The notes under the pieces: model-generated
What the model was told of the DNA's origin: nothing
What the model saw: the letters and a program-made list of their open reading frames with translations, nothing else
Database searches by the model: none
From: Clostridia bacterium
Lineage (GTDB): Bacteria > Bacillota > Clostridia > Monoglobales > Firm-18
Direction of reading: 5' to 3'
DNA length: 13,240 nucleotides
NCBI GenBank assembly: GCA_017408205.1
Contig: JAFQVC010000008.1
Coordinates: 1-13,240 of the forward strand
Program-made: the position numbers and the translations under genes
Part shown: piece by piece, positions 5,396 to 8,399 of the stretch
Layout of the letters: the number at the start of each line of letters is the position of its first letter
How positions within the stretch are numbered: the stretch's first letter is position 1

Positions 5396-5737
5396 ATGGA
5401 CTGTTTATTTTGCAAAATTGTAAACGGTGAAATACCAAGTAAAAAAGTTTATGAAGACGATCTGGTATATTCTTTTTATGACATCGAGCCACAGGCACCT
5501 TTTCATATTCTGATTATACCCAAAACACATATCACATCTGCATTGGAAATAAATGACGAAAACAAAGACATTGTAGGTCATATTTTCAAGGTTGCGGCAG
5601 AAATTGCCCGCCAGCACAACATTGCAGAGGACGGTTACAGACTTGTAACCAACGTAGGAAAAGACGGCGGACAAACCGTTTTGCACATGCACTTCCATAT
5701 GCTTGGAGGAAGAAGTTTACAATGGCCTCCGGGTTGA
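5396..5737 (+). CDS. HIT-family (HINT-like) nucleotide hydrolase/transferase
   Basis: The 113-residue cytoplasmic protein hydrolyses or transfers AMP from small nucleotide conjugates; the physiological substrate in bacteria is usually unknown. The triad motif HMHFHM is at 97-102 (His97, His99, His101), and the sequence ends with the HINT-typical LGGRSLQWPPG. The N-terminus DCLFCKIVNGEIPS and the PQAPFHILIIPKTHI segment (32-46) are standard for the family. Cys3, Cys6, His45 and the first triad histidine could form the zinc site present in some bacterial members. The Shine-Dalgarno AGGAGGT (5383-5389) overlaps the alaS stop codon, with seven bases to the ATG, so the gene is co-transcribed and probably translationally coupled to alaS. 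One reported activity of HINT enzymes is hydrolysis of aminoacyl-adenylates, which suits the neighbour, but that link is inference. Confidence 0.93.
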   Translation: MDCLFCKIVNGEIPSKKVYEDDLVYSFYDIEPQAPFHILIIPKTHITSALEINDENKDIVGHIFKVAAEIARQHNIAEDGYRLVTNVGKDGGQTVLHMHFHMLGGRSLQWPPG

Positions 5738-5757
5738 TTAGATTCCTTTAATATATT

Positions 5758-5781
5758 AGGGTGACAGAAGTTGTCCGAACC
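5758..5781 (+). repeat. Left terminal inverted repeat of the element
   Basis: The arm reads AGGGTGACAGAAG onward and ends TCCGAACC. It pairs with 6009-6032 over 24 positions: 21 Watson-Crick pairs and three that become G-U pairs in + strand RNA (5763 with 6027, 5771 with 6019, 5773 with 6017). The outermost A of this arm belongs to the putative TTA duplication. Confidence 0.8.
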
Positions 5782-5827
5782 ACGCCTTAAATCGCGTAAT
5801 TTCGGCGTATTTCGGCTTGTTATCTTT

Positions 5828-5845
5828 GCAAGGCGTCAGCCTTGC
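5828..5845 (+). other. Perfect 7-bp hairpin with GTCA loop inside the element
   Basis: GCAAGGC (5828-5834) and GCCTTGC (5839-5845) enclose the tetraloop GTCA (5835-5838). A second copy of GCAAGGC at 5927-5933 could pair with the same right arm, giving a mutually exclusive alternative fold. There is no following T-run, so it is not a standard terminator. Confidence 0.7.
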
Positions 5846-5942
5846 TGCATCTTCCGCACCAAACTCCTCTCGAAATTCCATCGATTTAAGGTCGAAGAAT
5901 TTTCAAAGAGGAAATTTTAAGACAATGCAAGGCAAAAACGCA

Positions 5943-5962
5943 GGTAATCCTGACGGATTACC
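5943..5962 (+). other. Perfect 8-bp hairpin with TGAC loop inside the element
   Basis: GGTAATCC (5943-5950) and GGATTACC (5955-5962) enclose the tetraloop TGAC (5951-5954). This loop is the exact reverse complement of the GTCA loop of the hairpin at 5828-5845. It lies at the tip of the third helical arm of the predicted fold, and no T-run follows. Confidence 0.7.
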
Positions 5963-6008
5963 GAGTATTTTAACGTGGCAGAGGCCAAAATTAACCTTTG
6001 AAAATCGA

Positions 6009-6032
6009 GGTTCGGATAGCTTCTGTTACCCT
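6009..6032 (+). repeat. Right terminal inverted repeat of the element
   Basis: The arm starts GGTTCGGATAGC and ends TGTTACCCT, pairing with 5758-5781. It ends only a few bases before the ftsK Shine-Dalgarno (GGAGGG at 6037-6042), so forming or melting this helix could affect ribosome access. That effect is inference. Confidence 0.8.
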
Positions 6033-6047
6033 TATCGGAGGGATAAA

Positions 6048-8399
6048 ATGGCTCGTTCAGCAGCAAAAAAGGTAAGAAAATCTTCGGGAAACGCACCGAG
6101 AAGAAAACAAAAGAAGGTGAATTACGAGATAGTATGTCTTGTAATTATTGCTGTGTCCATACTTATGGGACTTAGTTTTTTCACAACTGCTATAGACCCG
6201 CTCGGCTCATACATAAAGGGCTTTTTTATGGGTCTTTTTGGTGCACCTGCATATTTGTTCAGTTTTGTTTTGTTAGGAGCAGGAATTCACTTTTTTGTAA
6301 AAAGAGATACAACCAGATATAAAGGCAAATATGTAATGCTTGGATTATTGCTTGCGTTTATAAGCGCTTTCTGGAACGTTATACAAAACAATTTTGAAGG
6401 CAACTACTGGGCACTTGGAAAAGAAGCGGTTGGCGGCGGAATAATAGGCGGATATCTGTCACAACCTATACACGCGTTATGCAGTTTCTGGGGTGCTATA
6501 ATAGTTTTTGCTACTTTGATTATAATATTTGTAATAGTAATTTTTGAAATTTCAGTTACAAAAGTTGCAAAGACCGTTTACAACGGAATTGCAGAAAAAT
6601 TCTATGAAGACGAAGAAGATTATGACGAGGAAGATGAAAAAGAAATTCCTCAGAAATTACCAAAAGAGATAAAGAAAGAATACAAAGAAATCAAAAAGAA
6701 AATTTTTGACTTTGAAAAAGAACTTGAAGAAGTAGAAAAAATGGCAAAGCAAAATCAAAAAGAGGAAGAAAAGACACCTGTCATTGACGAAGTTATGGTT
6801 ACAAAAGAGCCCGACCAGGTGGCTATTACAGAAGCAATAGACGTTGCTGCAGAAACTTCACTACTTCCAAAAGGCAAAAAGAAAGAGGAAACAGAAGCAG
6901 TTGAAATAGAAGTAAAACACGAAAATATTGATTATGTTTTCCCTGATTTGTCGCTTCTTCGCGAGGGTGAAAAACAGTCTGCTTCTGCACAGGAGGCGTT
7001 AGAGCGTACTGCAAAACGGCTTATTGATACACTTAAGTCTTTCGGCGTAGATGCAAAAATTGTGGATTACAGCAAAGGTCCTACAGTTACAAGATACGAA
7101 CTGCAACCAAGCGCAGGAGTAAAGATTTCAAAAATTACAAACCTTGCAGACGATATTGCTTTAAATCTTGCGGCATCAGGGGTTAGAATTGAGCCAATTG
7201 CGGGAAAATCTGCAATCGGTGTTGAAGTGCCAAACGAGATTTTAAGTGCAGTTTATATAAGAGAGGTACTGGGAACAAAAGAATTTGCGGCGTTTCCAAG
7301 TAAACTTGCATTTGCTCTTGGTAAAGACATTTCGGGCAAACCTGTCATCGGTGATATTGCAAGAATGCCGCATCTTTTGATTGCAGGTTCTACGGGTTCG
7401 GGTAAATCTGTATGTATTAACACACTTATTACAAGCATATTATATAAAGCAACACCGAACGAGGTTAAACTTGTAATGATTGACCCGAAAGTTGTTGAAC
7501 TTGGTGTATATAACGGAATCCCACATCTTTTGATTCCCGTAGTTACCGACCCGAGAAAAGCCGCAGGTGCTTTGCAGTGGGCGGTTAACGAAATGACAAA
7601 CAGATATAAACTGTTTGCGGACAACAATGTAAGGGATTTAAAAGGTTACAACGTTTTTGCAAAAGAAAACAGTATGGAGGAATTACCTCAGATTGTTATT
7701 ATTATAGACGAGTTGGCTGACCTTATGATGGTTGCACCCCACGACGTTGAAGACAGTATCTGCCGACTTGCACAGATGGCACGTGCTGCAGGTATGCATC
7801 TTGTAATTGCAACACAACGTCCGTCGGTTGACGTAATTACAGGTATAATCAAAGCAAACATTCCGTCACGTATTGCATTTGCGGTTTCTTCTTATGTAGA
7901 CAGCAGAACTATCATTGATATGGGTGGTGCAGAAAAACTTTTAGGTCGAGGCGATATGCTTTATAGTCCTATCGGTGCATCAAAACCTGCCAGGGTTCAG
8001 GGTGCATTTGTTACCGATAAAGAGGTAGAATCTATTGTTAACTTTGTTAAAGGACAAGACGAAGTTCAGTACGACGAGGATGTTATTGAACAGATTGAAA
8101 ATGCAGGGGAACGTCCGTCAGCCAAAGAAGAAAGAGGCGGAGACGCAGACGAACTGTTGCCTCAGGCAGTTGAAATGGCGATTGACGCAGGTCAGGCATC
8201 TGTTGCTATGTACCAAAGACGATTAAAAGTCGGCTATCAAAGAGCGGCACGCCTTGTTGACCAGATGGAAGCAAGAGGTATTATTGGTCCCTTTGACGGA
8301 ACTAAAGCAAGAGAAGTTTTAATTACAAAAGCACAATGGTATGAAATGTTTATGAATGTTGATACCGATAAAAATGACGAAGCTGATATTACAGAATAA
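6048..8399 (+). CDS. ftsK: FtsK/SpoIIIE-family DNA translocase
   Basis: The 783-residue membrane-anchored motor pumps chromosomal DNA through the closing division or sporulation septum; the length is close to Bacillus SpoIIIE. I chose ATG 6048 because GGAGGG lies six bases upstream and the protein begins as a basic cytoplasmic tail (MARSAAKKVRKSSG). The open frame from 5817 would add 77 residues read from the upstream repeat element. About four transmembrane helices fall within residues 24-170. A linker of about 175-300 follows, acidic (EDEEDYDEEDEKE) then Lys/Glu-rich. The motor has Walker A GSTGSGKS (447-454) and Walker B VIIIDELADL with Asp554/Glu555. A winged-helix gamma domain (about 701-765, DELLPQAVEMA to REVLI) would recognise DNA orientation sequences. 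FtsK versus SpoIIIE cannot be decided without a sporulation context. pgcA starts 11 bases downstream, indicating co-transcription. Confidence 0.95.
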   Translation: MARSAAKKVRKSSGNAPRRKQKKVNYEIVCLVIIAVSILMGLSFFTTAIDPLGSYIKGFFMGLFGAPAYLFSFVLLGAGIHFFVKRDTTRYKGKYVMLGLLLAFISAFWNVIQNNFEGNYWALGKEAVGGGIIGGYLSQPIHALCSFWGAIIVFATLIIIFVIVIFEISVTKVAKTVYNGIAEKFYEDEEDYDEEDEKEIPQKLPKEIKKEYKEIKKKIFDFEKELEEVEKMAKQNQKEEEKTPVIDEVMVTKEPDQVAITEAIDVAAETSLLPKGKKKEETEAVEIEVKHENIDYVFPDLSLLREGEKQSASAQEALERTAKRLIDTLKSFGVDAKIVDYSKGPTVTRYELQPSAGVKISKITNLADDIALNLAASGVRIEPIAGKSAIGVEVPNEILSAVYIREVLGTKEFAAFPSKLAFALGKDISGKPVIGDIARMPHLLIAGSTGSGKSVCINTLITSILYKATPNEVKLVMIDPKVVELGVYNGIPHLLIPVVTDPRKAAGALQWAVNEMTNRYKLFADNNVRDLKGYNVFAKENSMEELPQIVIIIDELADLMMVAPHDVEDSICRLAQMARAAGMHLVIATQRPSVDVITGIIKANIPSRIAFAVSSYVDSRTIIDMGGAEKLLGRGDMLYSPIGASKPARVQGAFVTDKEVESIVNFVKGQDEVQYDEDVIEQIENAGERPSAKEERGGDADELLPQAVEMAIDAGQASVAMYQRRLKVGYQRAARLVDQMEARGIIGPFDGTKAREVLITKAQWYEMFMNVDTDKNDEADITE

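Follow-up and report, generated by a model that had tools for sequence, protein, structure and literature searches.

What is the palindromic block that separates the gene for a HIT-domain protein from ftsK at this locus, a mobile repeat lodged in an operon spacer or a structured RNA kept for the gene that it precedes? The window analysed here, a stretch of 13,240 nucleotides, is contig C196 of a draft genome (G000) of 1.16 Mb that is 71% complete and divided into 203 contigs. Within it the HIT-domain gene (5396..5737, + strand; Pfam PF01230) and ftsK (6048..8399, + strand; PF01580, PF17854 and PF09397) run in the same direction, and between them lies an element of 273 bp (5759..6031, + strand) whose right end faces ftsK, the orientation of the family's clade A described below. 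A preliminary description had placed a palindromic non-coding block at precisely this position, and its palindromic character is borne out by a predicted single-strand fold of −109.5 kcal/mol against −66.25 ± 4.59 for 200 dinucleotide shuffles, none of which equals it (z −9.42). The ends, proposed as inverted repeats of 24 bases, are inverted-complementary at 20 of the 24; G-T wobbles account for all but one of the mismatches. The single open reading frame of at least 60 amino acids that overlaps the element is one that continues into ftsK, and the element is non-coding. This frame (5817–8399) runs from inside the element and would add 77 codons to ftsK from a TTG. It is mechanical and bears no sign of use, because ftsK has its own ATG and, five bases from the element end, its own Shine-Dalgarno-like GGAGGG (6037..6042, + strand; read from the sequence).

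The element is one of many. A DNA search of the window's own draft genome found five full copies (window, C104, C154, C19 and C79), the other four 92–95% identical to that of the window, together with two copies cut by contig ends (C83, C112), a distant member (C36, 70%) and two short matches, one covering just an element end (C79) and the other the inner part of the right end (C160). The other two species in the genus carry at least 12 full-length copies (G001) and four (G002) plus derivatives, and full copies across these three drafts, which are 71–89% complete, are 92–96% identical. The 17 full copies of G000 and G001 were checked against G002, where both flanks could be placed jointly for eight. 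In six of these eight the G002 site is empty (window, L049, L039, L051, L052 and L055), which amounts to five independent empty sites because L039 is orthologous to L049. The remaining two are filled, by a full-length copy at L056 and, at L058, by a derivative that has a gap of 156 bases. At the empty sites the flanks meet within −4 to +1 bases, and the junctions are inexact at the base level because the flanks are 80–88% identical and small indels blur them. At the window's own site G002 has the HIT gene, a short spacer, GGAGGG and ftsK, which fits the earlier proposal that removal of the block restores a normal spacer. The family has therefore moved: sites that are orthologous in other respects are occupied in one sister species and empty in another. 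The block was correctly taken for a mobile repeat, dispersed and multi-copy rather than a single copy fixed at one locus.

The family extends well beyond the genus. When two conserved core stretches were used as a pattern to scan about 85,000 species, each represented by a single genome, at least 115 stretches were recovered; the 80 listed with titles all bear the name Clostridia, Oscillospiraceae, Ruminococcus, Eubacteriales, Bacillota or Acetivibrio, and nearly all are metagenome bins. The isolate Acetivibrio sp. MSJd-27 carries two copies recognised by pattern. Among relatives, with at most 12 candidates scored per genome, E ≤ 0.001 was reached in 20 of 60 genomes (own included), spread over 10 of 29 genera, though some of these matches are weak. 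A covariance model (R1) built on one arm of the fold, arm A, matched 52 of 391 genomes in a class-wide draw, with several matches in many genomes and at least nine in some, and 3 of 398 in a phylum-wide draw, all three within the class and one of them the window's own genome; both of these draws used stricter filters, under which weak matches are lost. Searches of plasmids, phages and viral contigs with the element gave no match, and no title or abstract opening among the open-licence papers searched describes this family. Contigs end inside copies in many drafts, including G039, G041, G525, G698 and G780, and copy numbers are thus probably underestimates. In G525 a different short repeat with ATATCGC hairpins was seen by eye beside a truncated copy (L409:1370-1490).

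Extraction from the pattern loci yielded 97 elements, with 20 matches too near a locus end set aside. In total 159 copies were recovered in 176 loci, of which 140 are uncut and 122 are left after removal of those with shared flanks. Length is nearly fixed, at 269–275 bp in 108 of these 122. The outer 14–20 bases vary between lineages yet remain largely complementary. A midpoint-rooted tree of 118 of the 122 copies (259–279 bp, with the window element included as a trimmed 263-bp form) divides the family into clade A (78 copies, window included) and clade B (40 copies). One clade B copy, L045, is the distant member on C36, and both clades thus coexist in the window's draft genome. In clade B the terminal repeats read ..GGGAGTCGAACCCC / GGGGTTCGACTCCC.. 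(L207:475-747, L158:3282-3555) and are kept in many copies while the outermost bases vary; they look like a tRNA T-arm and 3' acceptor strand read in reverse complement. Two copies (L155, L138) seemingly join the left end of one clade to the right end of the other and may be mosaics, as read by eye.

What is conserved inside these ends is a Y-shaped fold. The structural alignment (A1) holds 67 divergent full-length elements, 66 of 109 kept at less than 90% identity plus that of the window, and its consensus comprises stem P1 (5759–5784 paired with 6006–6031) and two arms. The left terminal inverted repeat (5759..5784, + strand) forms the 5' side of P1 and the right one (6006..6031, + strand) its 3' side; in this first helix 24 of 25 pairs change on both sides and 90.4% of cells are paired. 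Arm A (5785..5891, + strand; consensus helices 2–5) is a long imperfect hairpin with an inner hairpin at 5828–5845 (+ strand) whose loop is GTCA. A conserved linker of seven bases follows (5892..5898, + strand), TCGAAGA in the window and TCRDAGA in 66 of 67 alignment rows (columns 146–152), and leads into a second long imperfect hairpin, arm B (5899..6005, + strand; helices 7–10), whose apical hairpin (5943..5962, + strand) is terminator-like on both strands. Over the whole consensus 88.9% of cells are paired against 68.9% in shuffled alignments, both sides vary in 84 of 103 pairs, and the covariation score is 0.519 against 0.169 shuffled and 0.077–0.117 for slid versions, the last a comparison in which the consensus has the advantage of having been taken from the scored alignment, although the margin is large. 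Covariation across homologues is therefore present, and the interior is, as had been proposed, more complex than that of a simple hairpin MITE. The three-way junction of the preliminary description stands as a stem plus two arms in the family consensus, whereas the minimum-energy fold of the window sequence alone draws the left side differently. The three bases said to be the only unpaired ones at the joint (5782–5784) did not keep that role, since 5783–5784 pair with 6006–6007 and 5782 is an extra base found in 3 of 67 rows.

Two further ideas about the fold were tried and set aside. Kissing of the apical loops, suggested by GTCA and TGAC in the window, gave a mean complementarity of 2.55 against 2.49 shuffled over the 67 sequences, with 240 of 1000 shuffles as high. 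Descent of arm A from arm B as an inverted copy has at most a weak signal, with a median z of 1.42 against 0.70 for a same-strand control and z exceeding 3 in 21% of 118 copies as opposed to 3%.

A covarying fold of this strength is what would be expected if the element were a cis-acting structured RNA, such as a leader, attenuator or mRNA-stability element, that spread by duplication and was kept for regulating the genes that it precedes. The strand on which the structure is maintained bears on this reading and was addressed with the 118-copy alignment. Counted on the tree, changes from a standard pair in P1 are 49 to G-U and 50 to A-C, as expected if P1 is kept as double-stranded terminal repeats. 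In arm B the ratio is 50:23 (G-U share, 95% interval 0.53–0.81), and selection at the RNA level may act on this arm, whereas arm A leans the other way at 15:27, which is not significant (interval 0.19–0.57). A by-clade count that used another pair set and added the clades gave 54:77 for P1, 29:49 for arm A and 61:26 for arm B; its P1 value is less balanced than 49:50 and counts against the DNA-level reading of the repeats. With the arms leaning to opposite strands and P1 balanced on the tree, the family has no consistent single-strand RNA signature. A search of Rfam with the element returned no match at the gathering threshold and four weak matches far below theirs. For the RNA role proposed earlier, covariation is present and the strand counts differ from part to part, with P1 balanced, arm A leaning to A-C and arm B to G-U.

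The placement of the copies next to genes is a second observation in favour of a regulatory RNA. Both ends were assessed by one rule, which asks for a ribosome-binding motif in the first 22 bases, a start codon 3–13 bases later and an open frame. In clade A such a gene abuts the right end in 34 of 78 copies and the left end in 7 of 78; in clade B it abuts the right end in 2 of 40 and the left end in 17 of 40 (Fisher p = 1.1e-7). Counting either end, such a gene is present at 40 of 78 copies in clade A and 19 of 40 in clade B; for TA sites of G002 that are intergenic or in stop codons the figure is 1360 of 9475 (14.4%). Copies abut a Shine-Dalgarno motif 3–4 times as often as this null, which comes from a single genome and a home-made gene caller. 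These statistics treat insertion sites as independent though the copies are related; shared flanks had been removed. Orientation directly before Shine-Dalgarno motifs is thus specific to each clade, and the terminator-like hairpin in arm B of clade A also speaks for an RNA. Against this reading, the two clades present opposite strands to the gene, and half of the copies (59 of 118) have no such gene at either end under the rule. Moreover, the flanks differ between copies, and at six of the eight comparable sites the orthologous genes of G002, ftsK included, are without the element. We consider it unlikely that a regulatory RNA of this kind accounts for the family.

Other causes of the orientation bias were likewise considered. 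A one-way terminator cannot cover both clades, as clade B has next to none. Under a rule of a perfect stem followed by six T in ten, clade A has terminators on the minus strand in 36 of 78 copies and on the plus strand in 3 of 78, and clade B has 0 and 1 of 40. With six T in eight the clade A counts are 2 of 78 (plus) and 12 of 78 (minus), and under the looser five T in eight they rise to 67 of 78 (plus) and 57 of 78 (minus), with 4 and 5 of 40 in clade B and 11% (+) and 7% (−) in block-shuffled controls. A terminator may play a part in the orientation of clade A. The case for an outward promoter is not convincing: in three of four cases the mean best mismatch does not improve on shuffled sequence, and the exception is the clade B minus strand at 2.92 against 3.20 shuffled. 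Nor does a guide-RNA arrangement, in which CCTCC in arm A would face GGAGG, cover both clades; by eye the motif occurs in both despite their differing orientation.

Shorter deletion derivatives also occur. A 142-bp form is present at two loci of G039 and one each of G041 and G032, always with the same junction at a CAAAAT direct repeat; G002 has a 162-bp copy with a similar junction, and G001 a copy of 174 bp. If the 142-bp form spread rather than arose repeatedly, arm B would be dispensable in cis. In copies of 156 and 158 bp from two genera (L063b, L327) the deletion joins the tips of both arm hairpins, as if both had been extruded at the time. The 158-bp derivative lies in G002 at the site of full-length L058 in G001, and its deletion thus probably arose in place.

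Extrusion of this kind recalls a single-stranded-DNA element, in which a Y1/HUH-type or hairpin-specific enzyme would cut the Y-shaped hairpin once it is extruded on one strand, as for REP or IS200/IS605. The conserved hairpins, the orientation bias and the breakpoints at both tips in two genera would all suit such an enzyme, and Y1 transposases (PF01797) are found in 9 of the 16 genomes with a repeat match. Those 16 all have a match from the relatives draw, a few of them weak. Yet the three drafts of the window's own genus have no Y1 match (0 of 3), and an element whose terminal repeats have TA on both sides is a poor fit to IS200/IS605, which are not known to duplicate their target. Around the transposase loci that were fetched (99,400 bases), terminal-repeat-like matches numbered six, all single, against seven in shuffled sequence. 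A single-stranded-DNA mechanism is decidedly improbable for this family.

The flanks indicate TA as the usual target. The window copy does have TTA on both sides (5756..5758 and 6032..6034), as had been noted; the part common to the family is TA (5757–5758 on the left), and a TTA duplication was not upheld as the family rule. TA lies left of 105 of the 122 de-duplicated copies, at positions +1 and +2 on the right of 102, and on both sides of 89. The window copy, whose right flank begins TT, is among the 20 without TA on the right, and its TTA-TTA arrangement is one variant of the family flank. The base before TA is mostly T (64 of 122) and the base after it mostly A (72 of 122), counts in which the window element was entered trimmed to 263 bp, and the sites accordingly resemble TTAA. 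The flanking TA and the empty sites together indicate a target duplication, at a resolution short of the single base. In 115 of the 118 aligned copies the element begins with a purine, and an insertion at the TA of a TAA or TAG codon hence recreates the stop. Behind open frames of 80 codons or more, such recreated stops number 13 and 8 in the two directions in clade A (78 copies), and 4 and 10 in clade B (40 copies).

These flanks speak against the proposed kinship with IS5/PIF-Harbinger MITEs, which by definition have a 3-bp TNA/TWA duplication; the family flank is TA, though the window copy has TTA on both sides. IS4/IS5-type transposases (PF01609) are found in none of the three own-genus genomes and in 2 of the 16 repeat-matching genomes, and around the transposase loci that were fetched no ends match beyond chance. 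TA flanks with terminal inverted repeats are what an ordinary IS630/Tc1-type MITE would have, and on that reading the IS630 partner, of the kind proposed for the pneumococcal RUP repeat discussed below, would be absent from the drafts because these are incomplete; the genus drafts are 71–89% complete, and many contigs end inside copies. IS630 transposases (PF13358) are nonetheless found in 0 of the 16 genomes, which span eight genera and include four with completeness of 90% or more and contamination of 5% or less, and near-constant length and a conserved interior also sit poorly with such an origin. We regard it as unlikely.

The search for a partner was wider than these families. IS110 (PF02371), the transposase family of bridge-RNA elements, occurs in 1 of the 16 genomes, which speaks against the guide-RNA idea as well, and rve (PF00665) in 8 of 14, seven of them above the cut-off and one, in the window's own genus, below it; the 14 were partly chosen from the class-wide covariance draw. 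An autonomous copy was sought by terminal-repeat patterns in 60 genomes and also in G525. The inverted pairs seen were about 270–280 bp apart or belonged to shorter derivatives, and the remaining ends are solitary, many of them where a contig stops. A solitary end in G525 adjoins a gene that reads by eye as a radical-SAM protein rather than a transposase. The transposase with matching terminal repeats anticipated by the preliminary description, and any autonomous element, were thus not found with these transposase families and patterns in these drafts, which are incomplete and have many contigs ending inside repeats.

Taken together, our results make it very likely that the element at 5759–6031 belongs to a family of non-autonomous, MITE-like mobile repeats in Clostridia. 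It has the traits of a MITE in the broad sense, being short, non-coding and multi-copy, with terminal inverted repeats, TA flanks and empty sites. It is ordinary in kind and unusual in form, with a conserved interior, near-fixed length, a Y-shaped covarying fold, lineage-specific ends, clade-specific orientation and no visible partner. A typical MITE retains its ends while its interior is lost; in this family it is the interior that is conserved more widely, which counts against the MITE-like reading.

A mechanism can be proposed for such a repeat. A transposase supplied in trans would recognise the lineage-specific terminal repeats as double-stranded DNA and join the element to TA dinucleotides, while both folded arms would be under selection, either for mobility or for making a transcribed element tolerable. 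Where the TA of a TAA or TAG stop is hit, the purine first base would restore the stop codon, and a TA-AGGAGG junction would spare the ribosome-binding site of the next gene. Insertion between stop and Shine-Dalgarno should consequently cost little, as the stop is rebuilt and the ribosome-binding site stays intact. More speculatively, the family may represent a class of mobile element whose mobility needs the two folded arms, whose enzyme lies outside the main known transposase families and which inserts in fixed orientation against the translation-start signals of operons. We hold this to be improbable, but if true it would describe an element able to spread through compact genomes almost cost-free.

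The MITE-like family, found in operon spacers and with many draft contigs ending inside it, adds a widespread mobile repeat to those of gut Clostridia. It raises the questions of which enzyme moves an element whose interior, not its ends, is widely conserved, and why two clades turn opposite ends to the ribosome-binding site. Both questions can be tested with the covariance model and the end sequences specific to each lineage.

Among known systems, RUP of Streptococcus pneumoniae, a MITE of 107 bp linked to IS630-Spn1 with terminal repeats that match the resident IS630, is likewise non-coding and intergenic, with terminal inverted repeats, TA at the insertion site and ends paired in the fold (PMC2229807, PMC3049150). 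In contrast to RUP as presented in those passages, the Y-shaped family is 273 bp long with a three-way fold and no IS630 match. The bcr1 repeats of the Bacillus cereus group are also multi-copy, structured and intergenic, but are described at a shorter 147–167 bp and in another taxon (PMC2267715). BOX elements of S. pneumoniae share structure, terminal repeats, target duplications and paired ends, and are reported to range from 67 to 637 bp with module number (PMC3049150), unlike the Y-shaped copies, 108 of 122 of which fall at 269–275 bp. The ERIC/IRU (127 bp) and Correia/NEMIS (about 107–155 bp) repeats of enterobacteria and Neisseria are long stem-loops that resemble the family in their TA at the termini and their terminal repeats; they give structured transcripts, and for ERIC orientation is crucial for the effect on mRNA (PMC2229807). 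What sets the Clostridia family apart from these repeats, as they are described there, is a Y-shaped fold with two conserved arms.
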